Shown here in pieces: positions 376 to 62,428 of a stretch of 64,000 nucleotides of DNA (within the stretch, counting starts at the first letter, position 1; each line of letters begins with the position of its first letter). The notes below the pieces were generated by a model. That model saw only the letters and a program-made list of their open reading frames with translations, made no database searches and was not told where the DNA came from. This DNA comes from Echinostoma caproni (lineage: Eukaryota; Platyhelminthes; Trematoda; Plagiorchiida; Echinostomatidae). The stretch spans positions 81,489 through 145,488 of the forward strand of contig UZAN01039375.1 of assembly GCA_900618425.1 (NCBI GenBank). Direction: 5' to 3'. Both the position numbers and the translations under genes were made by a program.

Positions 376-387
376 CCGTAATGCATT
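376..387 (-). CDS. Gene A exon 39 (12 nt), last one inside window
   Basis: Acceptor TTCAATTGATGTTTAG, donor GTGAGT. AATGCATTACGG in phase 1 gives K-C-I-T, similar to exon 13 (K-Y-I-T). The good donor implies more exons beyond the left edge. Confidence 0.68.
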
Positions 388-36300: not shown

Positions 36301-39300
36301 GCAAGATGCTGTATTTTTCCCAATGTTCATAAAATTTTCATGAGAGCAAGAAGAAGCATCACGATCACAGGATGTGTTGAATTCAACTATCCGTTCAGTT
36401 CAATCGCCCGACATATACTGCATTGCAAAGAATGTGACAAACCTAGGGATGCCTTTCGCGTCTTGATCCTCCAGAAAGGTAGCCGTCTACTACGGTTCGC
36501 TGAAGCGGCTACCATTCGACGGTACAAACCCGATTTATGTAAACAGACAGAATTTGCGGCTAGTCTCGCACTGCTTTGGCAGTTGTTACTGTCCTCCTCC
36601 CTCCCCTCAAGCTGCAGTGATTCTGCTCCCTGCCGCCACGTTCAATCCGGTTCATACTAGTAACCTTTGGTCTTTGTATTGTGAGATTTCTCTTCCCGGG
36701 GCGAGTTTGCCTGTCCCCAAACCAGTCACTCTTTAAACCAAACGTGATCCGAATGTAAGTACGCAGCTGATGAAATTACCACAAAATAGTTGAATTCAAC
36801 ACATCCTCTGATCACGATGCTTCTTGTTGCTCTCATGAAAATATTAAAGGGTTGAATGGAAGTTCATAAAATTGTCCATTGCATAATAGATTATTCATGA
36901 AAGAAGAAGAAACAGCTGCCTAAATAATTGCAGTTGGATAAAAGAACATGTGAAATTTTGTCAGTAGCATGGCGATTTAAAAACAGCATCTCCTTGTTTG
37001 CTGAATTGCCGAAAGTTCACAGCTTCAAAAATGGTTTCCATGTTTTCCGAAGTCTTTCATAGCTTACTCATAGTAAAAGCTGCGGTAAAATAGTTTTAAA
37101 AATAACAAAAATGTATTATCAAAGACATTATTCACTGATAACAGTCTTAGTTGCTAAAACAACCCGATTCCAGTCAATAATTCATCAACTTCGATCGGAT
37201 TTTTACACAAAACAAAATATCCCAATTCTTCCGTTAATAAGTCGGAAAGTAACAAAAAAGACCTTTTTCTGGTATTTCTCATAAGACGGTACACAGTTGG
37301 GCATGCAAACACTTTATGTCGTAAAAAATAATTAGTGTAAGTGTTTTCAAACTGGTTGTAATGCTTGATGTTGGAGTCTGAGTCCAATTGGGTCAGAAAT
37401 AGTTTGTCAAATAGCTTTGCGCGTCTTTGGCCTAGGGTCAGTGCGACTGTTGACTAGACGCACTAGCTTGACGTTTGTATATTTTGGTGTAGTAACCTCA
37501 ATTATTGTTCAACACGTGCTCAATTTGCACGAGAATAAAGCTCCTAATTTCCGAGCACATGAAAGCTCGATTTCCAATGGTCACATCATGACTTTTGTGA
37601 TGACAAAGTTTAAAAGGAACAGACCGGACATCTGCCCAATAATTTATTGCAAACTGTCTGAATAAGCGAGAATAAGCAAATGTGGTCAGTTCCGGTGTCC
37701 GTAGGTTATCACCCCTGTTGAGTTGTTGATATGCAGAGGAGCTGGTTGCCAATTTTTCCCAATTTTTTTCATCGGATCATTGAGTTGACGATTGTCCGTG
37801 AAGATGAAGTTCGAGCCATCTCCCAACGCTGCTAATAACTAATAACTAAATAAGAAATAAACATACGCACCCTCACTGTTCAGAATTGAAATTACCGCTG
37901 CAGACAGAGATGAGCTGAAGTTCATAGGCCCAACGCGTTGACATTTTAATAATAAAAACAACAAAATATTTTTATTTCAAATTCAAGGACAAGAAATGTC
38001 TCAATGGTAATACAAAAACCGCGTATGATAAACAATTAACAGCAGAAAAGAGCAGTGTTAAAATGCTCACCGTGATCCTCCATCGCTGAATAATTAAAGA
38101 CAGATTGATTGCACGGAGAAATAAAGAGGGAGAGAGAGCGTTGATAGCACCGCAATGTTTAATGCATCTAGATGTCGTGGTATGATCATACAGAACTGTT
38201 TGTTACTGCTCAACTGAAGGTGTTCGACTAATCTTTTTATCAGACCCTGCAGTCTATCACAAGTTATGCGGTTTCTAATAAAACTGTAGTTGCAGTCATA
38301 AATTAGGTTTCAACGGTTGTTTTGCACGACACACAGTAACAACGAACACTTCAAAAAACAAATTGAAACGAGTGGCTTGTGATGTACATTTAGACTGAAT
38401 GCTATTAGCTTTACAGCTATTCCGCTCATCTTGGGTTCCGGAATTCTGTTCTAGAATAGTCAAAGGAATTTTAGGTTCGCACTGATTTAGGCAAATGTTT
38501 ATGACTGGCGCGAAACCAGATTGCTCTTTTAGTTAACTCTTATTTTCGCTATTTATTTGAACAAAACTGCACACATGTTTTTGTATCCTCGTACGCCTCT
38601 TTATTATTTTGATGCGTGCTGCAGATGAAGCTTCTTGGTCCTCTCCATAAACATTTGACTTCTCATTCATTTGTATTTTGCTTCAATTCTAGGCGAGGAT
38701 TTTATTAGGACTCAAGTTTCGAAGTATTTCCTCCCACTTTTCTTTCTTTTATAATTTTTATCACTCGTATCAGAGTTTGCTGTTATGATTTTGATTTGGG
38801 AAGGATTGCCGCAACCCTTGTTACCGTGAAATAATGAATGTTCATTTAAATTTTCTCATCCTTATTACCGAGATTTTGTTCCATATATTATGTCATCGCG
38901 GTTACAGCCGTGCACACAACTGCGAAGACCGATTATCACCAAAGTTTGTGACAAAAAAGTCTCTAAAGTCAGCAAATGAACAATGCGATTTCGTGAAGTG
39001 TGTTTACGAAGTTCACATTGATGCTTTGATTTTTGTCATGCTTGACTTTATTTTGAATTTCTACGTTTTGCTGCGGTTCGAAATAAGTCTTTGATAGACA
39101 CTTTGATGTAATGGAGTTGGAAGTATGTTAGCCGATTTGTAGCTTATTTCAGAATGCATGGCTAGGCAGCCGGATTCTTATATCAATGGCTTCTGCAATA
39201 TTCTACATATTCGACCTACAGTGATGACACAACACCAGATGGACTGAAGTACGGCGTTTCGGATTGTGCACAAGTCACGAGTCGCGAGATTGCTGAGGTT

Positions 39301-41141: not shown

Positions 41142-41185
41142 GATGTTCCGACGTTTCTATGATACTGACAAAAACCAGGGTTCGG

Positions 41186-41193
41186 TTTATATA
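41186..41193 (-). promoter_or_regulatory. TATA box of gene A
   Basis: TATATAAA on the minus strand, in the context GTATATAAACC, 45 nt upstream of the exon 1 ATG. The same GTATATAAACC string occurs at the gene B promoter at almost the same distance from its ATG, which supports function. The expected transcription start is near 41160. Confidence 0.75.
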
Positions 41194-41274
41194 CTCAATG
41201 GAACAAACACACTCATTCCATCGGTACATCACAGTCAGAATGCACACACGGTCACATGCACACTGACACACAAG

Positions 41275-41309
41275 CGGTTAGCCAAATCTGTGTCCGTTGT
41301 TGCGATTAA
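41275..41309 (-). promoter_or_regulatory. Conserved proximal promoter block, gene A copy
   Basis: A 35-nt block on the minus strand, about 80 nt upstream of the gene A TATA box, that matches the gene B block at 42214-42248 at 27 of 35 positions by my count. Shared cores include TCGCAA and GGACACAG. Equal order and spacing relative to TATA argue for a duplicated promoter. Confidence 0.6.
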
Positions 41310-42213
41310 GCGACTTCTCCCGAATAGGTTCCATTCCACCAGTATTCTGAACTGGTTTTCGGTGATTGACACCCCTCGTGCAATTGCGCACCCAATGCTG
41401 CTTTTAGATAAAATTAAACTTTGGTTAAAAAGCCGACAAAAATGTGCATATTTTGTCTCCCAACTTAGCTTTTGGTCATTTGTGACTAGGGATTCATACA
41501 CGGTTTGGTTTCTAATCAGAGCTGATAATACTCACATGGTTTGTTTTCAATAGGCACAGGATTCAGGTGACACAACGCGCAAACATGACTGACAGCAATG
41601 AACAAGCAACCAATAGGCAGCTCAATTATTGGCGAATTTTAGTACCATCGTTACGTCGAACTCAGCGGTCAAAAAATTGCCAATCATTAATTCTTACCTT
41701 TATGCCTGTCCGGTTTGGAGTTGTCCTTCCAGATCAAACTGTGCTTTTCAGGAGCGAGAAGGAACCCATAGCTGTAAAATTTGCTGTCAGGCTTTCCAGT
41801 GTAGTATTCGACTGCTGTCTCACAACACTGATCACTTCTGTATAATAGCATCAAATAGCTGAATACTGCATTGGAGAATGTACAATCACTTTTGATAATG
41901 TAGACAATCCAATCCACATGCTGCATAGCTGGAAATAAACAAAGATATGTTTAAATGTTAGACTAAAAAAACTAGAATAGTTCTTTCATTTTGCTTGTAA
42001 AATCGAGTTAAAATTTCACCGACTACTACCAGCATACCGAAATCAAATAAACTTCTCAGAACCGAAAACTGAAATATTGGACACCGAATTTTTCAACGCC
42101 CATAGAATATTTCAAAGTGCATTTCAGTGAATAAGCAAGAGCTTTGACTGATCGAAATGCTCCAAATAATGGTATTATATCGCCAAACTAGATAGGCTTA
42201 CGAAAGAGGGCGG

Positions 42214-42248
42214 TTATTCGCAATGATGGACACAGGTTTGCCGAACCC
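42214..42248 (+). promoter_or_regulatory. Conserved proximal promoter block, gene B copy
   Basis: Counterpart of the block at 41275-41309 (minus), 94 nt upstream of the gene B TATA box, with cores TCGCAA and GGACACAG. A GTGC/GTGCGT-rich run follows at about 42256-42290. Confidence 0.6.
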
Positions 42249-42341
42249 AGTGTCTATGTGCGTGCGTGCGTTCGTGCTTGCTTGCGTGTATGCTCACTTT
42301 GATCTACTGTCGGAGTCACTGTGTTTGTCAAGGGACGGTGG

Positions 42342-42349
42342 TATATAAA
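42342..42349 (+). promoter_or_regulatory. TATA box of gene B
   Basis: TATATAAA in the context GTATATAAACC, 43 nt upstream of the ATG at 42393. An in-frame ATG at 42360 lies only 11 nt beyond the TATA box, too close to be in the mRNA if initiation is 25-30 nt downstream, so 42393 was chosen as the start. Confidence 0.75.
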
Positions 42350-42392
42350 CCGTGTCAGAATGTTGTTGAGGTCACGAGCTAGTCGAAATATC

Positions 42393-42456
42393 ATGTTTCG
42401 TATTTGGTTCACTACTTGGGTATTTGGCTTTGTGTTGCTTGTGGATTTTATGACTG
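42393..42456 (+). CDS. Gene B exon 1: signal peptide
   Basis: 64 coding nt from the ATG to G before GTAAGC (phase 1). It encodes 21 residues starting M-F-R-I-W-F-T-T-W, with hydrophobic core V-F-G-F-V-L-L-V, ending F-M-T before a split Gly. This is a signal peptide aligned with gene A exon 1. The promoter has TATA at 42342. Confidence 0.87.
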
Positions 42457-45400: not shown

Positions 45401-48400
45401 ACGGAAAATTGGTGTACAAGACTCGAACCAGGACTGTACAATCGCTTTTGTAAGGTTGAGAACAAATTTACGGCTTGGTGAAATGTGAGATGTTTCCCGG
45501 TTCTAACCTATGAGCGTTTGACAGACAGTGCAAGATTAAACTTTGGTCTACTCAAAGGACCACAATCGTCTCGGGCTAGCAACTAAGGTGAAAGGGAGAA
45601 CAAGTCAGGCTGGTTTGTTCTCACTGTGATTAGCACAGAACTAACTCCGGCGAGAAAATAAGACAAATTAGGTGAATCAAACGCAATCAAACGGAAAATG
45701 CTGGAAGGATTGAAATCATCAACAATGAATTGAAGGCGCTCATCTTTTAATGGAGTTAAAAGCGATATAAGAAATGCGTAAGTGTCACTTCTTCATTGTC
45801 ACACCAGAAAATATGGATGACTGCGAGTGTTTGGTTACAATTTTAAAAGTTGAATGTATAAGAAACCAATTTAGGTAGTGAATGTTTGGATCATCCCAGT
45901 TGGCTTATCACAGGCGCCAGGCAATTTTGATGAGGTTCCCGGTTAGAATCCCTTCAGGAACATAAAAGGTAGGCACTGCTGACGAAACCTAAACCGGAAG
46001 AAACACCTGTCCAGTGTCTTTCGTTGGTTATCGCAAACATTTCCATCGCATTTATAACAAATCAACTTCAGATGTTCCAAGGTATTTTTGTTGAACTGTT
46101 GGTAAGTTTGTTGACAACGATCAGGTAACTGATTGTTTGGGAAAGAAACAATCTTTCCAGAACAACGTACGAGAGGAGTACTTCTTCACGTGAATTTGTG
46201 AAGTGGAATCCATCATGATGCGGTCCCTTCTGTAAATGGAAAAATGTGACCATATCACGGATATCACGCGGTTTGTTTCATCTCTGATTAGAATTAAGGG
46301 CTTTATCTCAATAACGTTGTCACAAATGTCTCCCCCCCCCGGGATGTTTTGATCAATTTAAAGTTGCCTGATCACCTGATTCTGGTTCATGTAATGAACA
46401 GGGTTACTGCATGGGCGAAGATAATTCGAGGTATCGTTTGTGATCTAAGGGTGATTTTCTTTCATCAAAACTGCACTTCACACACAAACACACTCAGCAG
46501 TGAAAATGGTACAATCATCCTTTATCGTAGGATGATTTTCTGTCAATAAGCTTCTTCAGAATCGTAATGCCACGTAAACAGTATTTTCTTTTTTTCATCA
46601 ACTCACATGTTTCCTCAAGTTGAACACATTGGTAAGTGTTGGTATTAGTGATGCGTTGATCAAGATGCGTAAATCCGACTTAGTAATTTTCTTGTTATTC
46701 ATTTTAATATCTTCACAACCCGATTTACAAACTGAAAGATGAACACGAATAAAAGTGTGCTAAAATATTACAAATATTACCATCATCATCATCATCAACA
46801 TCATTGTCAACACCGTAAGCCGGAACAGCATCAGCCACAGTATGAGGGTTTTCTGATGTTCATCTTTAAAACAGATCATCTTCCCTTCATCGCTCCCGGA
46901 TGAGTGTTGGTTTTTAAGCTGAAGATAAGAGTAAAAGGTGACATACAAGCAAACGTTTTCTGATATTGAATTACGTATAGTAGTATTCAAGGCCTTTCAA
47001 ATGCAACTCGAGGGTCTATTTGTGAATAAAATTGAGTCCAATGTGATCATAGATTGGAAAAGACAGGTCCTCCAAAGGTTTGACTAGTCCAAACAGCAGT
47101 AAAAATGGTTATTTGCCTCAATCTGTTCTGTGCTGACTTTCTGATTTTCCACGAGAATGCATGCGATTGCAGTGAGGATGCAGATTGCGTTCCGTGATCA
47201 GTAAAGGCAAGCAAGACGTGACGGAATTTTAGCTTTTAGTTGAAAATCTTTTGTGAGGTAATTGATAAAGTATTCAGAACAACTTTGCGTAAGCACTTCA
47301 ACTTTATTGTGAATCGATTCAATCTTATGTGATTATTTCTGTTGATGACAAATTTATCCAGCATCAGGTTGATCATAGTATTGGATTTCTCCGTCTCATA
47401 AAAGGACTAGAAAGTAGACCGTCCCATGTGTTGTTTTTTTAATGAGGTGTCACTTATGATCTGCTCCAAATCAAATAATCAATAAAATGTAATTATTTTC
47501 AGTGTATTATTGCCCTAAAAACTGGTCACGAGCTCACTATGCAGTTCCGAGATAAAGACCAGATTATCAACTGAAGAAGTTTCAAATCAAACTATCGATC
47601 GAAATATCTTTGTTCATTTTAAATTCGAAAAATCAATCTTTTCAACAACAACGAGCACACTTGCAGGAAGAAATGCGCAACACTCTCGGCTAACAAAACA
47701 CTGACCTGATTATTTACATTTGCAAGCCTATTTTGTTCTTCGGAACAAAATGGTTTGGTGGCATTCGTAGTTATTCCATAAGGTTCTTCGAGAATGAAAA
47801 GGTAAGCCTTCGTCTCAGCGAAATCGGATCTTTTTTAATGCGAAGATGAAACTTCACCATTTGCGTATGCCGATGAAAAATGCAGCACAGCACCGATGCT
47901 ACAAAAAACCTGATGGCTGCTATAGGTTGACTCAATTGTTTCTTTTAGAAAGACCTTTAGTTTACCGGCAGGGGATGAGGGCTTCACTAGTAGCGTGTCG
48001 CTCACCAAATCACATCACCATTGCGATCTTCTGTGGAGTGTTGAATAGGGAACATTACTTTTATTCGAAAACCAACCGTGGGCTCCGCAAATACCGCTGC
48101 ATTCTGTTGAGCTGCTTGTACAAGAACGCTGAACGCACTTCATTGAGACAGCTAGTAAATGTTTCAGTAATCGTTCCTGTGTATATGATCTAGCTCTACA
48201 CGAACGGATACGGATATAAACTGTTGTTCCACTGTTTCAGTCGAATTTCAGTTTCAAATGCTTCTGTACTAAACCGCAATGTTGATTGAACCAGTTTTGG
48301 CTAAACTTGCCTTAAAATGAATAAAGAAAACTATTGAAATAAGCCAATAAAGAACGCTGTTTGATGGCAAGTAACGTTGCATAAATAATTGGAATCTCCC

Positions 48401-51400
48401 TCATCTGATGACTGCCTCAATCAATGTTAAAACTCTTTTAGCTCATGGAAAACATGGTCAGTACATTTGTTCCCTTTTTTTGTAAAACAATCACAAATTC
48501 CGCATTGCTTATGGATATACTAAGAATCTGAGAACACAGGATGTTAAAAATTTAGGAATTCCTCTAAAATTGTTGATTTTATGTGAAAAAAATGATTAAT
48601 AACACAAACACATCGGAAGACTCTAACAGCGTGTCTTCCCGCAAAATTGGCTGACTGTAGACTGGGAACCATCTTCGAGGCTTACTTGAAAACCTTTTTT
48701 CTTCCCTCTGGAACCGGTTCAGTTAACATGGAATCTTCTCTTGTTTGCTACAAAAATGATCTTTTTGTGCTTGAGAGCTCAATTACAAATAAGAAGCAAT
48801 GAACGTTCAATTTAACCAAAACATACGAAAACACAAATTTCAAAGCAGATGTCTCTCTCGTTGAAAGCTGGTGCTCGAAGCGACCTGTTACGCAAAAATC
48901 TCTTTTCACAAATTTGTCATTGTAGATGAATGAGGCATTGTTCCCGCAGCACTTTGTGAATGAAGGACGGACGTGAACAACTGGGTTTATTCAACAGAAG
49001 CTCAGATGAGCCTTCGATTATCGTACCATCATAGTGCTGGTTAAATAGACCATTTTATATTACTAGTCACACACAAGATACCACCGCTTAGCCAGTCTCT
49101 GGTTCTGCTGTTAGATTATCATCTTCTTGGGACCTCAATATTGGAAAGCATGTAACGTGAACCATTCCAATATTTAAAGAACTACTGGACGATGAACTGT
49201 GGGGAAATTTTCTACTGACATGAACACATTCGAGATTTCACAAACAATCGGTTTAGAGATGCCAGAAGCACATAACAACAAATGCCTCAAACAGAATCAT
49301 GTTTCATTCGTTGACACATCTCGAAGTGTGATCCCTGAAATATCAATTCGATAAATTGCCTTGGAATACTCAGGGACGCACATTTCGCTAGCACGTTTAA
49401 ATTATTTCTCCAAACACAAACTGAGCACCGATGTGGTTCACGTGCAAACTGAACAATCGGTCATTGAGCTGAATGAACGCTTCTGATTGACAGGTAATGG
49501 AAATGTACAGACGTTGATGACCGAGCAGCTGATGGTATCCGCCCAACTCCGATTAGTTTGTTTGATCCAACCGCTTCTACGTTGCACTAATTTCTCGGCT
49601 CTTGTTCACGTAAACCCTTCTATCGATGGTGGTCTTGTTCCCGAATATTTGTCAAATAAACGGAACTACAAGAGCTACTAAGAGTATTTTGTCTCCCATC
49701 ACCATGTTAAGCCTGGTTCACGGAAGAAAATAACCGCTAATTAGCTCTTTAAACAGTGAATGATCATTGAAATTGTTGGTGGTTTAGGCGCACATGTGTG
49801 AAGAACTTGTATCTCTTACACAAGGTCGCCTCCGACAACTGAGAGGCTTTATTAAGACCGTTTGTGTTATTTCGTGATTTTCTATAAATTAATCGGAGAT
49901 AGCATCAGGTTTGTGAATTGAGGAGCTTTAAACGAACACAAGGACAGCTCATTTCAGGCATAGTTTTGTCGCACGTTGGTTAGTCCAGAGATAATTTAAT
50001 CCAATGGTCGCACCCAATGATACCTTCTAGATGGTGAGGTCCAGAATACCTACCATGCAGTCATGGGGCTGATCTTCTCTTGTTTCCTGATCTTGGAGAT
50101 TTGTTTGCAATCTTTTCATCACCAGCCCAGGAAACGTTTTTCTTACTTTAATGAAACGTATGCAAACTAACCAACGAGCTCGGCGAACTATAGAAAATGA
50201 ATTCAGTCCACGTGACCTAAGACAATCGATTTTCAATACATTTTCAACCATGATACTGTACGTTACATGCTAGGTTTCTTTCAGTTAAAGAACAATATCA
50301 TCGCATTCCAATAATTTCACACTGAATAATCCAAATGGCCTAGATAATCTCAATAACATATCAAAGAAACAGATAATTTCAATTTATTTTCACAACGATT
50401 ATTACCGTTATAGTGCTGTTCAAAAGTGAGTTCACTGATGCTTGCCATGGGGTAATCAATATCAACCATTTTAAACTGGTGACTGGAAGGATATAGCAAA
50501 TAAACCACGAGCTTCTATTCAGAGCATCTATGATAGACAATAATCATTTGTGTAATTTTGGGATATCAACCTGGAGACTGGATGCATAGGCCTCAGACCC
50601 TCATAAATCACAAAAAGCTATTTCATCCCGTCAGTTTAAGGTGAAACAAAATCGACCTGGTGAACGTTATAACAGCCAACTGACCTTACACACCTATGAA
50701 ATGCCTTAGCTGTAAACATCCCAAAACTGACCTTGACGCGGAAGTTATTCTCTTGCACTCTAAAACAGTAAATGCATAAGAAAATGAAGCTCATTGTCAA
50801 ACCAAAAACGTGTTGCGTTTTTTGTACATAAGTATATAACTGTTATACACTGTTGAAAAAACAACAACGAACAAGCCTAGTTTCGGTGATTCCTAGACTT
50901 GCTAACACTTCGGTTGTTCATTTGAGCACATGACTATCCAGCCTAGTGACCAACATTTGCGCAGATTTCGGACCAAGCCAGACCCTATCAAGACGTCAGT
51001 TACTTGATGAACACTGGAGTTGCACTGTGAATTGCATGTGGGCAAATATAACGATGGCTTGAGGTCAATGACTGTTATTTCACTTCACAGTTATTTCCTT
51101 GTATACGATCATAGCATTCAGGATGAATATCAGCTGCTTGTTTATTGTACGGTTGTGTATAGCCCGCTGCAAAATGAAAAACTAAAGCCAGTAATAAAGG
51201 AATTCTAAACTCCTTTCATTACGTAACAGTCAACTGGCCAACTGGAACCGGTGTCAGCAGAACTAAGTGATCAAATTTTGAGGAATTCTTAGAAGTTGCT
51301 GTTAAAAATTAAGAACTGAACGCACAAAGACTATGCATGATAGACAGCAATAACATCCGTTCTCTTTTCACAAACATTCCAACTTATGGAACCGTGGAAC

Positions 51401-54400
51401 AAATATACGATTATATATATATATGTATCTTATACGTATATAATAAAACCGGGAGTACGCTGAGGTCAACCATACCCGTCTCTCCGATAACACAGATCGA
51501 TTCGTTAACATTTTGCGGTATCTACGGTTGAAACTGAGGTACGCACAGCTACCTTTCAGCGAGAATACAGCCACAGAGATGATAAGTCCCAGACGAACTA
51601 CATCTGTATTTTGCAAAAAGGTTTCATATTGTTTTCTTCCCCTGGTCACTCTTGTGTTTTCAACTCATGGACAAACTGCTGCAGTCCCTCTAGCTGTATG
51701 CTGCTTCCTGTTATCCTATGGGATTCGGTTAGTTGGTAGCAACAGCAGACAATTATCTGACCGAGTCGGCAAGCACTATCAGGGATTGCTGATTACTAAA
51801 ATGACTGGGGCCAACATTAGTTCAACCGTTATACAACCAATCCCATGGTGATTGTAGCAGCAGCATCCTCCCTCTATTTCATTCTCTGCTTTTGATCTCA
51901 GGGGACACATATTTTGTAAACGTCTGACACCAGACAGTGTGCCAAACAAATCATGGCATAATAATCTTTATAAAAGAAGTTCTATCGTTGGCTTGTGGGC
52001 TGAATATTGCCAGGTTGGCCAGACTAAGGCAGGTGAATTTTCTTGAGGACTCCATAACCGAGGCCTTTGGCCAGCCAAAGCCTGATCGCACGACGGCAGG
52101 GCGGTGTGCAAAACCGCAGTCCGTCGGGGGTCAGCGTTCAGTTCATCAGATCATACTCCCTTTGAACGGGGTCAAATGTCCAAGGTGCCCAATACACCTC
52201 GATACCTAATTGAGGCGGTGACCGCTACCATAACCGACAAGGTGTGGATGTGGTTCGTATGCTGCCTCTTGTTTGGTTTGGAATCAGAGATTTTGGCCAA
52301 CTACCTTAGGTGAATTATCAGTGGTCCACAAACCCGGTTATGACCTCCGATGTCGGCTCTTCGTCCTCTCACTTTGGTGGGAAAACACCTCTTCTATACA
52401 CTAAATACGCTGGCTTGGACGTGCATGTTTTTGTGGATTGTTGTAACCGTCAAAGTTTTGTGATTCTATCGGCTTCCAAGTACAAATAGACCTGCCGTAG
52501 CAGGGACCCTCAAACCACGAGAATCAATCAAAGAACAATAAATAAACCGTGGCGTATCCAGAATGTCCCCTGGAATCATATGACAATAATCCGGTTTTAT
52601 CTTGCTCAATGTCGTTGGAAAACAACCGAGTCAGTTCTTCTCGTGGGACAATTGAAGCAGGGATCCGAGTAAAGTTTGGGTTCATTGACACGTACCGCAC
52701 GTTCGTTAGAATTAATACGTTGCAGATCGTAGAACTTAGAAATTTGTAACAGAAAAGACAAACGAAACGCACCGAGTCACCTGTGAATTAGTTCGTCATT
52801 GGCCTAAACATTGTGAATCGAAGGTATTTGCGAGCGTGCATTCAATGTTCAATTTTCATATCCATCCCAATCCACTTCTAGATCAAGAAGAATGTGAGTA
52901 CATCTACCTTCGGCCCCACCCACTGATCATCCACTGGAATCCAAACAGTGTAACAGAAATCATTTAAAGAATATTTTTTTGTGAAATAAGCTACTAAGAA
53001 CTGCATCTATACTGATTTTACATTTGTTGTTGCGAAGCTTCTCAAAAGAGAAAACGGAAATAACTCAAGTAACTTCACTTCATAGAATAAAAACAAAACA
53101 AAACAATTCAGGTTGATCAATAGATATCAAATTATCTTTTGAATGAAAAAATAACTAACCTCATGGTTGCTGCTTAAAATTTTTATTGTGATTTTATATT
53201 TAGTTTCCATTCGAAGCTTAGGAGTTCGTATTTGATTGTCAACTGAGTGACACGAATGCTATGAGACATTGCCACCATTAGTTAACGTGCCAGGTATCAA
53301 TCTAAATGTTTGCACTTCAAGTTTATGATTCTTCCGGCATTGCGTAGGTTGAGGCTATACTCAAATGGATTTGCATTGCATTTGCTTCCTGTCCTCATAA
53401 AATCAAATAAGCTTAACTTGATCATGTATCATTTTCTTTCAAGGAATTCGTGCATTTTCTCACTCGAAATGTTTCCACTTTACTGAGGACTTCGGTAGTC
53501 ACTAGGGTTGAGATTAAGTTTAGAGAAAATTAGTTCATATAGATCCATCTCAGATCGGTTACAAGAACAAATGAAGTGAAAACGATGAATTGGTGTCCCT
53601 GGAGGCAACATATTAGAGTACGTTCTTGTGTGGTGAGATGTATGAGATTTGAGACATATTACGAATAAGGACATCTGGAGAAATTCCCGTGTACCGGATA
53701 CACTGAAGAAACATAAAGCAATGTGTTAAAGATTTCTTTGTTCCGAATTTCTTCGAGGTTTGGGACAACTGACGTACAATTGAATTCTTAATTACAAATG
53801 TGCATTTTGCATTTAAATAATTAAGCCATTTTGGGCAAATATTTATTCTCTTTCGGTCGATTTGAATTCAACAATACAGATGGTGCCGAAGGAGCAAGTA
53901 AGTGTGTTCTTCTTTGATGATCATATCTTTTACTTCTTGAATGTGGCATCTATATTTTCATCAAGGGGGGGTTCAGGTTTTCTCTTATAAATCCCGACCC
54001 TTATGACAATACAGTCATGAAAACAGTACATTTTAGAATTCGGCTTGTGTATCGCTATCGCTTGTTACGATGAATGAAACTTGCGAGTAAAATATAAGAT
54101 CAAACTAGACATTTGTGATGATTGAGTGATCAAACCATTACAATAAGATTAGTACAATCTAGTGGAATCGAACAGTCAAGATCTATTCATTTGTGACGGC
54201 GAGAGGGCAGTGGTGAGCGTTCAGCTTCTCATTAACTCATTTGGTCGGAAATGCACCCGTTATAACTGAATCCATCAAATCTATTCGCGTACGCATGAAA
54301 TTGCCTACTTTCTGTGAGGAAAGTTTGAGTGCTTGAATCAGTTTTCTTTTGTGCACATGATTGTGAATATATCAAGAGGAAGACAGTTACCTTCACCGAC

Positions 54401-57400
54401 GACTAAGGTTTCATTGGGGACGTTCAGTGGGCTCGTTGAGATACATGATTTATAGAAAATGGCTTCTGGGGATTTACTTAGAGTAAACCGGGTATTCTTT
54501 TTCCATCAAGTAGTTAAGCATTCAGTGGAGATGACCCACAGACCTCCGTGTATATCTTAGTGGATGAAGGTCTCTAATAAGCCCAGTTAGATACAACTTA
54601 AGAAACTGATATCATGGGTTATTTTCACACTATCAGATAAAAATCAGTGACCTCAATCCTTTCGGAAACCAGATAGATAGCAGTATTAAGAGTGTGTATT
54701 TTGTTTTTGCAGCGTTGTCTTGCTCAAAAATACTGATTCTTCCCAACGGAGGCTCTTCTATGGAGCGGAATCACGTGAATGATATCTTGAATTCCACACC
54801 ATTCATCAATAGGTTTTTTCACATGACTATCATCCAACTCTCTTTCGTGTAATTTGTAACTTTCTGGTGCACCTCAATGATGGCAGAAAATACATGCCCT
54901 GACTACAGTACAACGCAGCACCCTGCATTTGTAAAGACTTCAAACACGTGGAAACTATTCCCCCGGAATGGCTTCTCATTGCGTGTTTCTTCGATTTATC
55001 CATCTGTTTAGGTTTATTTGTATAAAGGCTTTTCTCACATTGTCAGCTTAAACGCGCCTCTTTATGTGCCAGTAAAAAAAGAGTAACAGATGCATTCCTG
55101 TTCAACATACTAACCATCTATGATGTGCTACTAATGCGAAATGTTGGTTCACGTTAAAACATCCCCCAAATCCGGTTTTCTATCTCAGAATATGCCCGAA
55201 ACTACAAAGTGCAAATAAACAAGTACCGGTTTACATCACAGCATCAATTGAATAAGCAAAATATTATTATATAATGCCATGGTGCACATATGCAGGCAGA
55301 TCAGTGTCCTAGATCAGTGGGCTTATAAATGAATCAGATCAAATATTAATCCAAGTGTTACAAACAAAACGGATTAGTGAGCAAGAGAGACAGTGAGCAG
55401 GATCGCTTGAGTTTGACTGACAAACTGGAAAGCAAGGAGGCCACTAGCAATCAGTACTTGATACCTTCAATGTCAGGTGATCGATCACCCTCAGATAACT
55501 GAATACGACATCAAGCAGGTCAAGCAAGGGACTAAACGTGTCATAAAGAAGATAGGATGCAATCACCGTCATGTTAATCTATTTACATCCAAAAAAATCT
55601 CACTTGAAAAACACATTTGGGCAAGCTTACGAGCAACACTATGATTTTTCAAGAAAAAAAAACGCACTATAAATGAATATTTTCGAAAATGCACTTTCAC
55701 CCCAAGCACCCACACAATGACAATCGTGCATTGAAGCGCGGGTTTTGAAAAGTTGTCACAAATAATAGTAGATGCACGTTATTATAAAGTTCCCGTTGTA
55801 TCAGTAAGAACGTCCAGTAGCAAGCCAAGCTGTTTTTGAAGGTGACTTCTTCCTTCGGTTAACATAATCACAAATAATGATCCGATAAATACAGAGTAAA
55901 TACACCGTTTCATATTATGCATACAATAATATAGTTGCGATGCGATTTGAATGTCTGTTGCAGAAAATATTCAGAATTGAACAAACTACCTCCTTTAAAA
56001 CGGTTTGCTTCCTTTCAATATTCTCATGAGAAACAAACAGCATGAAATTGATAACATGCAATTTTTTTCTGTCCAATTTCAGATGTGGAACGACGTGAGT
56101 ATTGTTTAGGAATCCGCCTCATGAATCTCCGCAATGGCTTCTGGTCTTCTCGTTTCAAAATAAGACGAATACATCCAAATGTCTATGTTTACCTGCTTAG
56201 CTAACCATAAGTTAATCTAATTCATATAACATGTATATGTTGTTACGCATTTCAGTCAGGAAACTGAACAGTGAGTCTTCTCCTCCGAATGATCGGTAGT
56301 CATTTTCGTGCAAAGTAGATGGACAACAAATAGCAAAACGTATTAGAGCGAATGGTTAAACGAGACTCTTTGTATAAAGCCTTCGTCACTTGATAGGTAG
56401 ATGTCAGGGTTAGTATTGTGCTGTTTGCTTTTGTTCACGCAACTATGGTGGTTCTCACTCATGTTGACGGCTTTAAGCTTTTTGATGCGAGAACATTCCT
56501 GGTTCGCATCCCCGCATTGGAGCAGAACTGGGAACAAATGACCTGTTTAAACTAGTACTAAATATTTGTTCGGTGTATTTGTTATGCATTTCACATGAAT
56601 TGCTATAGGACCCCCTGACACATTTGTTTTCAATTCCATATTAAAGGCCGAGAAATCTGCAATGCAGTATGCTGTTGATGAACTATTTGTCTAAATGATT
56701 TGAGTCTCAAATGTGCGTTCAAAAAGCTTTGCGATAGTAATACACGTATGTTGATTGAGGGTATAGTGCCAGACTGTACCTTTATGTTGTGTCACAAGCT
56801 TGTAAACGTGACAGTGATATGTTGTTTACGACCCATGTATGATTGAGTAGAAAATAATATGCTCAAGGTGTTTTGATGTTAAAGCATTTTCATGTATCGG
56901 AGCTTTTCTTACCAAAAATTATTTTCAGTTCGCATCAAAAGTAAGTTCACCGAGATGTCATTGTTCAATGAATATATTCTTCTGATCAACGGTGAAAGAA
57001 GACACAAACTTGCTCCGTTCAGAAAAAACACTTTCACTCATGGACGTGTTGCTGTAATCTATCTATTTTAGGACTGGAAGCAAAGAGTAAGCAAACAAGA
57101 TTATAACACTTTGGAAGTTCTTGGGAATATTTTGATAGCCTCCATATTTGGTGGTAAAGTCCTTACTATTCAATTATCACACACACTGCTTTAACTGTCA
57201 CTTTTGTTGAATGAAAAAGCTATGTAAATCCAATCACGGCCCCAGATGAGAGAGAAGAACAAATAGTGCCAATTAGAGATATCTGTAAGATAAAATTTCT
57301 AAATGATTGACTATCACCCAGACAAGTGTACTAGCAGTCACATAAAAATAAATAAACAATGTCTTTTTACTTCCTTTTTATTTATTGAATATACAAGTGT

Positions 57401-60400
57401 ACAGTCAACATATAGCAAGGGGGCCGCGGCCATACAAAGGCTGCCTGGGACAATGAGTGGTGTTGGAGCGATTCTGGCCCGGGATTACCAGGTAACAAGT
57501 TTTTCACCTCAGCCACTTGACCACCACCGGCCTAAGAGCAAATTATTTTAGCGAACATTTAGAAGTTAGTTTCTCTTGTGCAGAAGCACTTATACATATA
57601 TATATATCCGCGTGAGAGATGTGACCAATCGAATTCAGTAAACACTCAAACGACTGAAATATATCATGGGAAATATCATCTGTTCAATGACGCCTGCATT
57701 TCTCTACCACCATAATCTAGGATGACCCTGTTTTTATTAAACATGTCAGTTTTATACCATTTATATAAGTATTTTTATTTACAATCAATCTGCTACTCAT
57801 TTTACTACTTCAGAACAAGAACGAAGTGAGTGATCAGGAATTTTGGTAACCGTATTTCTTGTGGGTAGCCCACCTGTTCACTACTATTGACTGGTCCTAT
57901 AGATACAATCAACTGAGCGTCAGCGAACAAATATCAAAACATAAGGCACATGTCAAAATCGATTATCAGAATGTGCTTCCTTATCACCAAAAGTAAATTA
58001 TTCCAAATAACAGATTTCAACTATTAATAGTACATTCCTTTCGGCTAAGAAAAAGATTGAAGGCACTTAAAAAAGGCAACCGAGACCAATTCATCATCTT
58101 TTAGTATATTTTTTATTGCAACGATTGCGTGAAATCAACGAAACTGCAAATTTTAATTACATTAGGGAAACGACGTTTCTTGTTCCAAAATGCCAGAGTT
58201 AGTTGTAAATGAGACGATGTGTTTGGTCATGTCGGTTCGTGTCTATGGCTGATTTTTTTAGCCTTATTCTGATTTGGGACTCATTCATTCGGAAGAAAAA
58301 ATAAATTTAACTGTGACGATTTATTTGTGGATTCGTGTATCATCAAATAAGCCCATCCGGAAGGGAAATTAGGCTTCGATAAGAGGGACAACAGCTGATT
58401 GGCTTGGATTTTTATACAGGTACGGTCAGCTGGTAAGGAGTGAAAGTGTTTTGGTGTCAAAAACCGACATGGCGTCGACTGATTAGAGACAACTAAACAA
58501 CATAGCCATTTAATCTTTACATGTTTTCATTTCCCTGCTTTTTGGCAGTATTTGAAATAGTTTTATTGATAAAAATATTTAAGTATGTCATATAGAAGAA
58601 GGTATTTCAAGCAGTTATCATAAAAATGCACGCATGGTTAGTTTTACTAAATTGGAATCTAAAATGTACAATAATAGTCCACAGTAGGCACTTTTGTAGT
58701 AAAACCAATTTTCCCGCTACCTTTATCAAAAAGAGATCACATATTTGCACAGTGTAGTGTCATAAAGAACATTTAGGAAACGAAATTAATGTGTTACCTA
58801 AGGTCGAACAACTATGCAAGCAATTGTGCGATTCCGTATGAGGAAACTGTCGTTCACCGCAAACCAAGCAAATATGAAATTACCGATTACAGAGAAAAAC
58901 TAACGTGTTAATGTGTTTCTCTTGACGGAGACGGAGCCTGAAAGGGGCAGATTTGCAACGTTACGCATAATAAATTACAAGTTAAACGGACTGACGGTGA
59001 GCCAGTTAATCTAACTGAAAACCTCAGCAAAGAATGACTAATCCAGATAACTTTAATGACAAGAAAATAAGACAGAAGAGATTTATACGGTCTGTTCAAA
59101 TGAACTGTCAAATGTACTGCATGCTCAATATTCTGTTATACTTTGTAGCGGAAGCGTATGAGAGTAAGTTCTTTCATGGTTATTGTTATATGGTTCACTA
59201 TTTCAAAGTACGTTTAACGTTTCTGGTTATCCGAATAAAGAGTTGATCAAGTATTTGGTATTTGTTTTGTAAATGCCATTTCCGATCTCTAGATTTCATG
59301 CAAAGCCATTGCCCAATAGCTTTACTGATACTCACCAGATGTTTCTCCTAGCTAGACATTTTGACTTGGCGCAGTAGCTTTGGAAACTGTTTTTAGAGGT
59401 GTGTTGTTATGGTTTATATTGTGCAGTATCTGATCGCTTTTTATAGTTATTTTCACTGGAGAAAGATCAGTATGCGTTCGGAAATGTTGTGCGGTATATT
59501 ATTTGGAATCTCTATACCACCTAGCTATAAACAAAGCCATTTTCAATTTTTGTTCACCCAACCAGGATTTATTGAGGGTAAGTGAAAAATTAAAGCAAAC
59601 TACCTGAACTGCGTTCAATCTAGTAACAGTTTAACTGAAAAAAGTCGCCCTTCGGGACTTTGTTACCTTCAAAAGAGAAAGACGGTAAAGCGAGAATTTG
59701 TTGTGCTCGGTGTTTTGGGTAAAAGTGGAGAGTGTACGCATCGTATAACATAGTTGCTAAACATCACAAAAATATATTTCTCCAATAGGGTAAATTTAAG
59801 CTGATTATTTCCACATTTTAAGATGGAATAATTGTTGAATATATTCGTAATTTATTCTTTTTTATTTTTTTGCGGCGCAGAACTGAAGGAGAAAAGTACG
59901 TATTACGTGATACATGCCGTGTGAAAAAAGAACATGTTTATCATCGATAAAGAGAAAGAATAAAATTAAAATTGTTTGGAATACAAAATAAAAAATTATT
60001 ATTTATTCGCGTTATCGTTGTTCAAAGCTCTTTTCAATTAATGTGTTGTTTTATCTCTGTATTACTGTCTTCATTTTGCTGTATTGGTACCAAACGTTTT
60101 ACTTATAATGTTTAGTATATGAACGATTAGACAAAACGTTCCAGAGGCACACAACCGGTTTCGTGGTTCTTGCCGCTTCTCAAGAATGCGTATCGGGCAC
60201 CTGTTTTGTCTGATCATTCCCAAACGTTCACTTCCGACTCTAGCGTTAAGTTTTTTTGTGTTTAGCGCATAGGAACAACGACACTTGACACGAAATCATT
60301 GCAATGATTATTCGATGCTAGTTTATCTCAAAATCAACTTCCCAAGCTGCGAATGAGATTTCCGTTACCCAAAACCTTTGTACCTATGAATAATCGACTG

Positions 60401-62428
60401 ATTTTTAAATATTTGGTTAATAATGTCTAACGGTTGCTGCAATGCGACTTCAATAATCATTGAAGGAGGCAAGTTTGAAATCATGAGCAGTAGGCTCGTG
60501 AACGTACGCGCCCACATCATGGTATTAGAGTTCAAGTACTTAATATAAATTCATCAATATTTCAATTCAAAATTTGGTTGACGGCTCATCCTATCTTTGA
60601 TAATTATATTTTAGAAAGAGAACAAGGTATGTGGAACAAATTTTCACCCACTTTCCTACAATTGAGAACAACAGCGTTTTTTTTCAATGTGTTTTGTGGG
60701 ACTAATGAAACGATTGAAACATTCCTTAGAATCCACCGTCAGTATTGAGCATCTGTTTTGTTTGAAATAGACCAATACACATCTTGCTTATAAATGATCA
60801 ATGTAACCTTGGCTTTGGTGCCTTTGAGCTCCAGATTATCATCAAACCTTAGATATTCACTCCATGACTAGTCCCGATTACATCTTATTTGGATGGTTCA
60901 TTCCGACAAACGCTATATGGAAGCACCCAAAACCATAGACTCGAACCGATGGCAGATATACCCACGCGGAATTAAAAATAAATAAGCAGTCTCTATTGAG
61001 TCCGGTCCTACGTGAAAAGCAACACTTAGATGGGGTAAACTTGGTTTCCAGTTTCATTTACTTTTGTGAATAAACAGTGCTAATCTGAGACAGAACTGAG
61101 GTTGAATTCAAATCGACGTAAATTCAGATAACTCTAAGAATAAACCTTCAAATTCAATACTGTTCATGTCATTAGTATAATGTTTTAATAATCATTTTGT
61201 TTACTGTTTCACATGATAGCGGTTGCTGGATGTAAGAAAAGTTCCGATTATTATAATTGTACGCTTGAACACCTCTTTGCACTGTTGGTTGTCTTCAATA
61301 ATTGCAGATCAGGCATTCACAAGTGAGTGTTGCAGTTGTTTCGTATACAACGATCATTGGGCATTCTGTTTATTTATCCTCTATGAGCAGTTAAAACGAA
61401 AGTGATTGAGTAAACAAGGTGTTCGTCATCAATCCTCCCTTATCGAAATCCCAAAAATGCACTGCGAACAACAGGTTTTGCCTTTCCATGTAGCTGACAG
61501 GTCAATGTGAGCAATAGTATGAGATGAATATGACTGTTTTCAAATTATCATCTTTTAGAAATAATTTTCTGACACAATGATCCCTCATTGCTATCTGAGC
61601 AATAAAGCCGTTTCCATGAAAGAAATGTTGAACATAATTATTTAAGTAAAAATTCTTTGTTTTATTTGATATCATTGAGGTTTTGTGTATGACCAACTTA
61701 TGCAATCTCTGTTCGACGCGAATCCTTTCAGGTTTCCTCGAAGGTGCGTATTGTTATCATGACTGATATTTCATATACGAACACAAGTTGCGCAATCACA
61801 TGGTGATGAAAATCATATTTGTTTTACTACTCCGTCGAAGATGTTTGCTTTTTAAATTTAAAACTTTTCAACAAGCTGTAATTTTCAAAGAGCATCTTGA
61901 ATGAAACATTCACTTCACAACAATGTTGGCGAGTTAAAACAACTGGCAAAATTTATCTTGCCGATTTGCCTCTGCTTATTGGGATCATGCAGGAGCCTTT
62001 TTAAAACCGATTACCATCGTCAACTGTACAAAGTTATTTAGTCTGTAGAGGCTAATGCTAGGCGTGCAACAAACTGGCTTTCTATCGCTGCGAGTTTGAT
62101 GCTACGTACGACGGATTGGTATTGATGTACAAGTTCAAATTCACTTTTTATTGTTTCAAACGCTTCTCTGAACCTCTGAATCATTTTCCACTCCTCCGTA
62201 CAGAAATGGATGATTTGAGTGAGTTATCGCATTCAGTGGTTGTTCAGATGTCTACCACTTGCTTTGGAATTTGTAAGTAAACAGTTATTTAGGCGAACAA
62301 GGAATGGGCATTATTTGTTCATTTTCGAAAGGATTTTAGTGAACGAGTCCATCTTCTTACCTTTACCGTATGTGCAAGTAAGAAGATTATATGATGAAGC
62401 AGTAAGGGTAGTTAGTGTCAGTGGGTAA
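42393..62428 (+). CDS. Gene B: micro-exon gene, paralogue of gene A, divergent
   Basis: Predicted secreted micro-exon protein. Exon 1 (64 coding nt) is a signal peptide, exon 2 is 30 nt, followed by micro-exons of 12, 12, 12 and 18 nt and then six strict 12/15 pairs between 56083 and 62218. All introns are phase 1 and junction codons contain no stop. The 18 firmly placed exons total 310 nt over 19.8 kb. Compared with gene A, 15-nt partners are missing after exons at 46620 and 50414 (a weak candidate lies at 48442). The right end given is a candidate terminal exon with a TAA and nearby ATTAAA signals; the gene could instead continue past the window. The product is a string of charged nine-residue units (K, E, R, L rich), possibly helical or disordered. 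Role inferred only from gene class. Confidence 0.85.
42457..44186 (+). other. Gene B intron 1
   Basis: 1.7 kb without a frame-compatible micro-exon. An acceptor-like site at 42535 leads straight to an in-frame TGA. Holds a SINE-like copy at 43.3-43.6 kb. Confidence 0.6.
43335..43560 (+). repeat. SINE-like copy, family 2
   Basis: Contains GGTCCGGAGTTTTAAGC (decayed B box) and CACTACTGATGGGCTATAATAAG, as in the 15.6 and 28.7 kb copies. In gene B intron 1. Confidence 0.5.
44187..44216 (+). CDS. Gene B exon 2 (30 nt)
   Basis: Acceptor TTTCATCCAACTTTAG, donor GTACGT. 30 nt in phase 1: split Gly, then F-I-I-P-K-N-D-E-T and one G. Same length, and the same N-D-E near the end, as gene A exon 2. Confidence 0.88.
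45905..46030 (+). repeat. SINE-like copy with B box
   Basis: GGTTAGAATCCC and GCACTGCTGACGAAACC, the latter also seen near 21220 (GCACTGCTGACAACTTCC). Gene B intron 2. Confidence 0.4.
46620..46631 (+). CDS. Gene B exon 3 (12 nt)
   Basis: Acceptor CACATGTTTCCTCAAG with a strong T-rich tract just before, donor GTAAGT. TTGAACACATTG in phase 1 gives V-E-H-I. Confidence 0.78.
46778..46812 (+). repeat. ATC simple repeat
   Basis: CATCATCATCATCATCAACA-type run; a GATGATGATGATAATGATG run of the same kind lies at 33101-33125. Confidence 0.65.
48442..48456 (+). CDS. Gene B weak candidate 15-nt exon
   Basis: Acceptor TAAAACTCTTTTAG is good; donor GTCAGT is unusual. CTCATGGAAAACATG in phase 1 gives A-H-G-K-H. 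Length and place fit the missing partner of exon 3, but the donor is poor. Confidence 0.3.
50414..50425 (+). CDS. Gene B exon 4 (12 nt)
   Basis: Acceptor ACGATTATTACCGTTATAG, donor GTGAGT. TGCTGTTCAAAA in phase 1 gives V-L-F-K. The exon end and donor flank (CAAAAGTGAGTTCAC) resemble those of exon 9, suggesting duplication. Confidence 0.8.
52882..52893 (+). CDS. Gene B exon 5 (12 nt)
   Basis: Acceptor CATCCCAATCCACTTCTAG, donor GTGAGT. ATCAAGAAGAAT in phase 1 gives N-Q-E-E. Confidence 0.85.
53880..53897 (+). CDS. Gene B exon 6 (18 nt)
   Basis: Acceptor TGAATTCAACAATACAG, donor GTAAGT. 18 nt, phase 1, gives Y-G-A-E-G-A. It is the only 18-nt exon and stands where a 15-nt one is expected: a lengthened partner of exon 5. 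Confidence 0.82.
54713..54852 (+). CDS. Possible alternative terminal exon of gene B
   Basis: Behind a strong acceptor (TATTTTGTTTTTGCAG) the phase-1 frame stays open for 45 codons, then TAA at 54850. No good donor lies within it, so it would act as a terminal exon after exon 6, adding a Cys- and Asn-containing tail without repeats. No clear polyadenylation signal was seen nearby. It could equally be chance. Confidence 0.25.
56083..56094 (+). CDS. Gene B exon 7 (12 nt)
   Basis: Acceptor TTTTCTGTCCAATTTCAG, donor GTGAGT. ATGTGGAACGAC in phase 1 gives N-V-E-R. Starts the run of six strict 12/15 pairs. Confidence 0.87.
56256..56270 (+). CDS. Gene B exon 8 (15 nt)
   Basis: Acceptor GTTGTTACGCATTTCAG, donor GTGAGT. 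TCAGGAAACTGAACA in phase 1 gives L-R-K-L-N; phase 0 would hit TGA, so this exon helps fix the phase. Confidence 0.85.
56929..56940 (+). CDS. Gene B exon 9 (12 nt)
   Basis: Acceptor CCAAAAATTATTTTCAG, donor GTAAGT. TTCGCATCAAAA in phase 1 gives I-R-I-K. Confidence 0.85.
57072..57086 (+). CDS. Gene B exon 10 (15 nt)
   Basis: Acceptor TAATCTATCTATTTTAG, donor GTAAGC. GACTGGAAGCAAAGA in phase 1 gives R-L-E-A-K. Confidence 0.85.
57418..57542 (-). repeat. SINE-like copy, family 1
   Basis: A box TGGTCAAGTGG on the minus strand; the B box is degenerate. The tail with CCCAGGCAGCCTTTGTATGG matches the 18.7 kb copy. In the gene B intron before exon 11. Confidence 0.6.
57814..57825 (+). CDS. Gene B exon 11 (12 nt)
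   Basis: Acceptor CATTTTACTACTTCAG, donor GTGAGT. AACAAGAACGAA in phase 1 gives K-Q-E-R. Confidence 0.87.
59149..59163 (+). CDS. Gene B exon 12 (15 nt)
   Basis: Acceptor TTCTGTTATACTTTGTAG, donor GTAAGT. CGGAAGCGTATGAGA in phase 1 gives T-E-A-Y-E, sharing E-A-Y-E with gene A exon 38. It falls inside an unrelated plus ORF in another frame. Confidence 0.82.
59566..59577 (+). CDS. Gene B exon 13 (12 nt)
   Basis: Acceptor TTTTTGTTCACCCAACCAG, donor GTAAGT. GATTTATTGAGG in phase 1 gives R-F-I-E. Confidence 0.83.
59881..59895 (+). CDS. Gene B exon 14 (15 nt)
   Basis: Acceptor TTATTTTTTTGCGGCGCAG, donor GTACGT. AACTGAAGGAGAAAA in phase 1 gives E-L-K-E-K; phase 0 would hit TGA. Confidence 0.85.
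60125..60225 (+). repeat. Dispersed repeat, copy 2
   Basis: Counterpart of the element at 9.96 kb; inside the gene B intron between exons 14 and 15. Confidence 0.45.
60615..60626 (+). CDS. Gene B exon 15 (12 nt)
   Basis: Acceptor TGATAATTATATTTTAG, donor GTATGT. AAAGAGAACAAG in phase 1 gives K-R-E-Q. Confidence 0.82.
61308..61322 (+). CDS. Gene B exon 16 (15 nt)
   Basis: Acceptor TGTCTTCAATAATTGCAG, donor GTGAGT. ATCAGGCATTCACAA in phase 1 gives D-Q-A-F-T. Confidence 0.84.
61732..61743 (+). CDS. Gene B exon 17 (12 nt)
   Basis: Acceptor GACGCGAATCCTTTCAG, donor GTGCGT. GTTTCCTCGAAG in phase 1 gives S-F-L-E. Confidence 0.8.
62204..62218 (+). CDS. Gene B exon 18 (15 nt, possibly extended to 62272)
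   Basis: Acceptor CCACTCCTCCGTACAG, donor GTGAGT. AAATGGATGATTTGA in phase 1 gives E-M-D-D-L. If this donor is not used, the same frame stays open to a second donor GTAAGT at 62273 (69 nt, still phase 1) or to TAA at 62278. So this may be the last regular micro-exon. Confidence 0.8.
   Translation, partial: KWMI
62340..62428 (+). CDS. Candidate terminal exon of gene B
   Basis: Acceptor TTCGAAAGGATTTTAG. If joined to the donor at 62273, the phase-1 frame gives L-N-E-S-I-F-L-P-L-P-Y-V-Q and on to TAA at 62426-62428, about 29 residues. Two ATTAAA signals follow at 62438 and 62484. The intervening intron would be only 67 nt. This is an alternative to continuation beyond the window. Confidence 0.4.

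Follow-up and report, generated by a model that had tools for sequence, protein, structure and literature searches.

The 64,000-nucleotide window analysed here (positions 81489 to 145488 of contig C432, within a 426.5-Mb assembly) carries two divergent series of very short exons, mostly of 12 and 15 nt, which we call gene A (minus strand) and gene B (plus strand). A sequence-only reading had singled out a run of twelve such exons in gene B, at 56083..62218 (coordinates are those of the window unless a contig is named). This run very probably belongs to a head-to-head pair of giant micro-exon paralogs that are built, over most of their length, of four-exon units, have a predicted secreted helical product and come, probably, from a trematode. 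The reading builds on exon lengths, phase and class order, on the paralogous starts of the two genes, on the continuation of the pattern over the 308-kb contig and on the recurrence of these exon types elsewhere in the assembly.

The twelve exons had been described as a strict alternation of 12 and 15 nt, all in phase 1 and flanked by strong acceptors and consensus donors. All of them are found between 56083 and 62218 with the lengths 12, 15, 12, 15 and so on, namely at 56083..56094 (12 nt, class c; the letters denote the four exon classes defined below), 56256..56270 (15 nt, d slot by position, class b by sequence), 56929..56940 (12 nt, class a), 57072..57086 (15 nt, class b), 57814..57825 (12 nt, class c), 59149..59163 (15 nt, class d), 59566..59577 (12 nt, class a), 59881..59895 (15 nt, class b), 60615..60626 (12 nt, class c), 61308..61322 (15 nt, class d), 61732..61743 (12 nt, a slot, the weakest sites of the twelve) and 62204..62218 (15 nt, class b). 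Every one of these exons is open in phase 1 and the joined peptide, read by hand, is open as well; the exons at 56256 and 61732 are absent from the order-aware chain described below. The splice sites are not all strong, those at 61732 (acceptor -0.4, donor gtgcgt, total 2.2), 60615 (total 4.1) and 59566 (total 5.0) scoring low, and the alternation holds without exception within these twelve exons but not contig-wide, where equal-length neighbours are present. Between exons 5 and 6 lies a 13-nt AG..GT decoy (58420-58432) with good splice sites, which would break the frame and which outscores those of the twelve exons that figure in the same candidate listing, and a weak additional 12-mer is found at 61220-61231. 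A gene B intron also holds an interspersed repeat resembling a short interspersed nuclear element (57340-57541), for which 39 further genome places were scored at 79-85% identity.

Since AG..GT pairs of moderate score, 12-15 nt apart, arise randomly, the run might be ascribed to chance or to a selective reading of intronic sites. Scored by a generic splice model with the weakest of the twelve exons as threshold, the 6.2-kb region contains 14 phase-1-open candidates of 12 or 15 nt, whose longest alternating chain counts 12 exons; this chain shortens to 10 at the second-weakest score and to 8 at a score of 5. The shuffled-intron comparison called for in the sequence-only reading bears out the run, as the exon-less introns yielded, over 500 dinucleotide shuffles at the weakest-exon score, 0.93 candidates on average and alternating chains of at most 3 exons. 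The opposite strand of the region holds no candidate at that score, and the pattern recurs on a contig that was not used for training (C1114, see below). A chance origin of the twelve-exon run is excluded by the shuffles and the opposite strands, and the probability that we leave to this explanation is negligible.

The starts of the two genes were located by a hydropathy-based scan of each strand for a start codon followed by a hydrophobic stretch and a donor. The top match per strand is MFRIWFTTWVFGFVLLVDFMT (42393..42456, plus) for gene B and MLRTVFSSWAPVLGLLIFMN (41081..41141, minus) for gene A; both are signal-peptide-like first coding exons that end in phase 1 at a gtaagc donor, the one of gene B being homologous to that of gene A, and their start codons stand head to head, 1.25 kb apart. 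A TATA-type element, TATATAAACCG, precedes both first exons and has exactly two exact copies within the window, at 42342..42352 (plus) for gene B and at 41183..41193 (minus) for gene A. The divergent intergenic DNA of 1.15 kb between these elements (41194..42341) is, from its position, a putative bidirectional promoter region. Genes A and B can be aligned over some 250 bp that span promoter and first exon, and it is on this alignment that the paralogy of the promoters rests, because a search of the genome with the gene B promoter DNA matched only itself. As far as their sequences go, genes A and B are thus head-to-head paralogs with alignable promoters and predicted signal-peptide-like first exons.

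An excess of 12- and 15-nt exons is apparent in both genes. A scan of the window for lengths of 6 to 60 nt, made at threshold 5 with an untrained splice model, gave 17/13 candidates of 12/15 nt on the gene A side and 6/6 on the gene B side, the other lengths averaging 0.70 (maximum 3) and 0.30 (maximum 2), respectively. The two control strands carried 1/0 and 0/0 candidates of 12/15 nt, and three candidates were the most that any of 100 shuffles per gene side yielded. Contig C432 (308,509 bp) was covered with a splice matrix trained on the intron positions of 40 window exons, which favours the scores within the window. At scores above 6, the contig holds 33/32 exons of 12/15 nt on the gene A strand and 53/50 on the gene B strand, with at most three for any other length from 6 to 60 nt and with 0 and 0 on the opposite strands. 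An order-aware chain comprises 71 predicted exons over about 109 kb for gene A and 108 over about 184 kb for gene B, in which 60 of 70 and 93 of 107 steps, respectively, lead to the next class, and for which the opposite (control) strands of C432 offer no candidate. Both genes extend beyond the window and run off the contig. Because this chain favours class order by design, the order-independent tests given below carry more weight.

A few exons are missing or weak, which would suit relics of a decayed giant gene whose expression has been lost. However, an internal stop in phase 1 is found in a single one of 178 exons (against 27 in phase 0 and 36 in phase 2), the donors of 138 of the 179 chain exons are exact GTRAGT sequences, and the exon classes are conserved though the introns have diverged, so that decay is a very improbable explanation of the locus.

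The exons were typed by two-class mixture models fitted separately to the 12-mers and to the 15-mers, positions being left unused, which distinguishes classes a and c among the former and b and d among the latter. Class a is followed by b 30 times and by d 3 times, b by c 27 times and by a 6 times, c by d 27 times and by b 5 times, and d by a 26 times and by c 6 times. Over most of both genes, the present module is a12-b15-c12-d15, that is 54 nt encoding 18 residues, roughly K[YF]IxELExQKKEQxEAYE. Among the 176 same-gene neighbours, 110 stand in class order and 20 have alternating lengths with the classes out of order. When class models fitted to one gene were applied to its paralog, they gave 41 neighbours in order, 7 wrong and 18 of equal length in one case (n = 66) and 67, 15 and 28 in the other (n = 110). 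In-order neighbours number 41 in gene A and 69 in gene B, where permutations reach at most 31 and 47 and, with the length series kept, at most 38 and 58. For length alternation alone, with exons called order-blind, 48 of 66 (gene A) and 82 of 110 (gene B) compare with maxima of 49 and 73 in 5000 permutations, so that in gene A this alternation taken by itself does not lie beyond all permutations. The nine-mers of the chain tell the two possible periods apart: their mean BLOSUM62 score is -3.64 (gene A, n = 22) and -6.81 (gene B, n = 36) at lag 9 and 12.50 (gene A, n = 16) and 10.38 (gene B, n = 26) at lag 18. The window list of gene A agrees from 29938 to 14923 (lag 9, p 0.88; lag 18, p 0.0008). 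The sequence-only reading is supported in that a multi-exon module was probably duplicated as the gene expanded, but its two-exon, nine-residue unit gives way, over most of both genes, to a module of four exons and 18 residues. Typing, class tests and lag similarity together rule out the two-exon unit as the present module there.

The predicted residues (n = 780) are rich in E (17.2%), K (17.1%), Q (10.3%) and L (9.9%) and include 2 Pro, 6 Gly and 5 Cys, the hydrophobic positions of the 18-residue unit being 2, 3, 6 and 17. Summed over nine in-order runs of 36-94 residues, the hydrophobicity spectrum reaches 59.5 at 100 degrees, and 26.2, 24.8 and 25.3 at 80, 120 and 103 degrees, respectively; the informative part of this spectrum is the dominance of the five-turn harmonic. 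The peptide predicted from both genes is thus charged and poor in Pro and Gly, with similarity at 18 residues and a dominant five-turn hydrophobic harmonic. Protein searches with the reported peptide and with a 200-residue stretch of gene B found no relative at the E-values set, in a database search that requires shared 5-residue words and similar length and that distant relatives may escape. A known domain was rejected, as all family matches fall under the cut-off (e.g. ApoLp-III, E 0.024), and no Rfam family reached its gathering threshold.

We propose that each gene opens with a TATA promoter and an exon of signal-peptide-like sequence, after which tiny phase-1 exons follow one another in a very long series. 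Both genes would have grown as the four-exon unit was duplicated, perhaps following an earlier stage with two-exon units, their introns having diverged since. The product would be a long, secreted amphipathic helix, rod-like or engaged in a coiled coil. Coiled-coil repeats of 18 residues (7+11) have 18/5 = 3.6 residues per turn and are charged and amphipathic; the units described here would share this pitch, charge and amphipathy and differ in that the repeat coincides with the four-exon unit. The exon lengths may have been held since 18 residues make five whole helical turns, such that any multiple of four exons would keep the hydrophobic stripe aligned. Two exons, with 9 residues and 2.5 turns, would flip the stripe to the other side, which could be the reason why the unit became four exons and its lengths were kept. 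Because every intron is in phase 1, any exon could be skipped without a frameshift, and only four-exon skips would preserve the helix face. An exon-length code for helix geometry, with about 1.25 turns per exon and splicing in four-exon, five-turn steps, is a reading that we rate as unlikely. If true, skipping would determine how long the secreted helical rod is while leaving its working face untwisted, and skips of one or two exons would turn this face by 40, 140 or 180 degrees.

The regular lengths might instead be a by-product of duplication in a flatworm micro-exon gene of the diversity type, in which exon skipping yields host-facing secreted variants. The gene class, the symmetry of all exons and the signal-peptide-like start are in line with such a role, and schistosome micro-exon genes are said to vary secreted proteins by alternative splicing (PMC4350168; PMC10526429). 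On the other hand, 179 predicted exons retain their lengths and class order while the introns have almost no homology left. This suggests that the full-length product is under constraint, and we hold the diversity account to be possible but doubtful.

The picture of two giant genes made of four-exon, five-turn units has several observations to reckon with, all of which weigh against it. Contig C432 includes 64,650 bases given as N; 46 of the 176 same-gene neighbours are equal in length, be they missed exons or real exceptions; the reported exon at 56256 is typed b where d is expected; and the junction codon at C432:158048, beside a skipped exon, reads as a stop. A gap search of gene A found no 15-mer at 13743-11814 and no 12-mer at 11256-9252, and in gene B the 5' exons are weak, one of them being an 18-mer, and the 5' part is incomplete. 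Regarding the helix, a peak at exactly 100 degrees follows from the repeat length, because an 18-residue repeat peaks only at multiples of 20 degrees, and, once the 18-position profile is averaged, the moments at the heptad period (3.5 residues, 102.9 degrees) and at 3.6 are equal. Finally, the first part of gene A is typed a b a b a a b rather than a-b-c-d, and its nine-mers between 37079 and 31790 (AFTMIPERQ, AYIQTISNQ, SFSQTPEGQ and AHLQIVTLQ, with the weak exons 34382 and 32626 included) are alike at lag 9, scoring 7.0 versus -6.7 when shuffled, with 0 of 5000 shuffles as high.

This first part of gene A speaks for a different history, in which the unit of duplication was a two-exon (12+15), nine-residue cassette and alternate cassettes diverged later into four classes. 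Two further features fit: 54 nt is 2 x 27, and the 12>15 introns of genes A and B on C432 are shorter than the 15>12 introns (p = 0.0055), an asymmetry that may stem either from a former stage with two-exon units or from recognition of the exons in pairs. However, similarity at lag 9 is negative outside the first part of gene A, classes a/c and b/d show no residual in-register likeness (p 0.57 and 0.33), and even between 37079 and 31790 lag 18 is still stronger (20.0). Furthermore, only one pair among the 62 self-matches of C432 at E 1e-6 carries chain exons (84 bp, 78.6%), and this duplicate surrounds the b exons 36255 and 33045, whose distance amounts to four exons provided that the weak exon 34382 is included. 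We consider the two-exon cassette an improbable unit of duplication for these genes. A two-exon unit may have been an ancestral stage, because the first part of gene A repeats at lag 9 and the 12>15 introns are shorter; the four-exon unit is the reading that we prefer for the genes as they stand.

Exons of the same types occur elsewhere in the genome. Patterns for classes a and b were designed from the C432 exons and searched along with reversed-pattern controls. The class-a pattern gave 25 genome matches versus 2 for its control (12 on C432, 5 on C806, 5 on C1114 and 1 each on C994, C2493 and C11702), and the class-b pattern gave 10 versus 0 (5 on C432, 2 on C1114 and 1 each on C806, C994 and C1159). 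Outside C432, 13 class-a matches face 2 in the control and 5 class-b matches face 0. On contig C1114, which was not used for training, the models find 11 exons within 10 kb, 9 of the 10 steps between them being in order, and no candidate on the opposite strand; a BLAST comparison with C432 gives three matches, all inside an interspersed repeat. Contigs C806, C1114 and C994 may continue genes A and B or carry further genes. As to the organism, the family PF08034 (trematode eggshell synthesis) has a single match, on contig C6830, at 30.4 bits versus a cut-off of 24, and is found in 0 of 14 control genomes, which suggests a trematode. The matching open reading frame (ORF; L036:1294-1770) is rich in Gly, Lys and Tyr.

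The closest known kinds are the micro-exon genes (MEGs) of flatworms and, by architecture, the megacycle gene of aphids. MEGs are numerous in parasitic flatworms, poorly understood and hard for gene finding, and they have been defined operationally by exons of less than 70 nt divisible by 3, at least seven exons, at least half of them micro, and runs of at least four (PMC7653826). The predicted exons have this structure, with lengths of 12 and 15 nt, 71 + 108 exons and the 12 reported ones in a row. Common to the MEGs of S. mansoni, E. multilocularis and H. microstoma and to genes A and B are runs of tiny exons divisible by 3, long introns, a signal-peptide-like first exon and proteins that exon skipping can alter (a prediction in the present case). 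The megs of S. mansoni are described with 10 to 20 very short exons, mostly of 15 bp (PMC10526429), whereas here 71 and 108 exons are predicted, with almost only two lengths, a four-exon order and a giant head-to-head pair. The MEG superfamily motif FLphiphiFX6Wp(K/H/R) (PMC10526429) was not seen by eye in the first predicted exons of gene A, the start of gene B being incomplete, and for this reason we do not file the genes as sequence members of that superfamily. Schistosome MEG-26 has a signal peptide and an amphipathic helix, as predicted for the present genes, and some of its members have an internal duplication and a repeated exon-length pattern (PMC5825161); it is described with one such duplication, while dozens of 12/15 units are predicted here. 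Amphipathic helices are also known from esophageal MEGs (PMC4671649).

The megacycle gene of Melanaphis sacchari has 118 exons in about 100 kb and encodes 2092 amino acids (PMC9168663). It shares with the present genes more than 100 microexons (108 predicted for gene B and 71 for gene A), a secretion signal (putative in the present case) and internal tandem repeats with shared intron positions, and the internal exons of bicycle genes start at codon position 2, as do the exons here (PMC9168663). Conversely, megacycle is reported in aphids only, and no fixed exon-length code is given for it in the cited description (PMC9168663). The Cys-Tyr-Cys (CYC) motifs of bicycle find no counterpart in a predicted product with 5 Cys in 780 residues, and megacycle itself has no obvious CYC motifs in the cited description (PMC9168663). 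The likeness of genes A and B to megacycle is one of architecture only, and the PF08034 match speaks against an aphid genome. In the open-licence full-text literature, which was the scope of the search, no paper on alternating 12 bp and 15 bp exons was found. The exon-length series described here constitutes an informative and searchable signature that ties exon boundaries to protein geometry, and it allows a direct test of why micro-exons retain their lengths. The predicted counts suggest that micro-exon genes can grow far beyond the size described in S. mansoni (10-20 exons), and exon-class models find such genes without RNA data.

Within the window, the first exon of gene A is followed on the minus strand by a 30-nt exon 2 in phase 1 (RVALETDNDE, 40564..40593) and then by 39 candidate exons of 12 or 15 nt down to position 387. 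In this list 36 of the 38 neighbouring pairs alternate, the exceptions being 13755>11813 and 11271>9251, an alternation that is partly one of choice since gaps were filled with weaker sites of 12 or 15 nt. The first part comprises 12-nt exons at 39844..39855 (class a by sequence), 37068..37079 (class a), 35925..35936 (class a by sequence), 33332..33343 (class a) and, probably, 32615..32626, and 15-nt exons at 38071..38085 (class b by sequence), 36241..36255 (class b, within the homologous flank 36223-36306), possibly 34368..34382 (weak acceptor), 33031..33045 (class b, within the homologous flank 33013-33096) and 31776..31790 (class d). There follow, with 12-nt exons in classes a and c and 15-nt exons in classes b and d, 29927..29938 (a), 29821..29835 (b), 27112..27123 (c), 26492..26506 (d), 25845..25856 (a), 24649..24663 (b), 23025..23036 (c), 22719..22733 (d), 21031..21042 (a), 20611..20625 (b), 18170..18181 (c), 17213..17227 (d), 16099..16110 (12 nt, a slot, class c by sequence alone), 14909..14923 (b) and 13744..13755 (c). 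Beyond the first exception stand a 12-nt exon at 11802..11813 (class c by sequence, no preceding 15-nt exon found), 15-nt exons at 11644..11658 and 11257..11271 (both class b by sequence) with a doubtful 12-nt exon between them at 11380..11391 (weak donor gtagca), and a 15-nt exon at 9237..9251 (class d, no preceding 12-nt exon found). The list continues with a probable 12-nt exon at 8036..8047 (weak acceptor), with 7926..7940 (15 nt, b), 7731..7742 (12 nt, c), 7026..7040 (15 nt, d), 5610..5621 (12 nt, a) and 4475..4489 (15 nt, b), with a probable 12-nt exon at 2860..2871 (GC donor gcaagt, fitting the class-c consensus), and with 1267..1281 (15 nt, d) and 376..387 (12 nt, a), past which gene A leaves the window. 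An intron of gene A also contains, on the minus strand, a tRNA-Asn-like structure (anticodon att, 30391-30476), perhaps a tRNA-derived repeat.

Between its first exon and the reported run, gene B has, on the plus strand, a tentative 12-nt exon at 46620..46631 (weak acceptor, score 4.6) and a tentative 15-nt exon at 48442..48456 (weak donor, score 3.2), two probable 12-nt exons at 50414..50425 and 52882..52893, and a probable 18-nt exon in phase 1 at 53880..53897, which occupies a 15-nt slot. The listing of ORFs of at least 110 aa within the window holds nine entries. A retroelement-like open frame of 163 aa (L014:6554-7042, minus) has 54-59% identity to three proteins.

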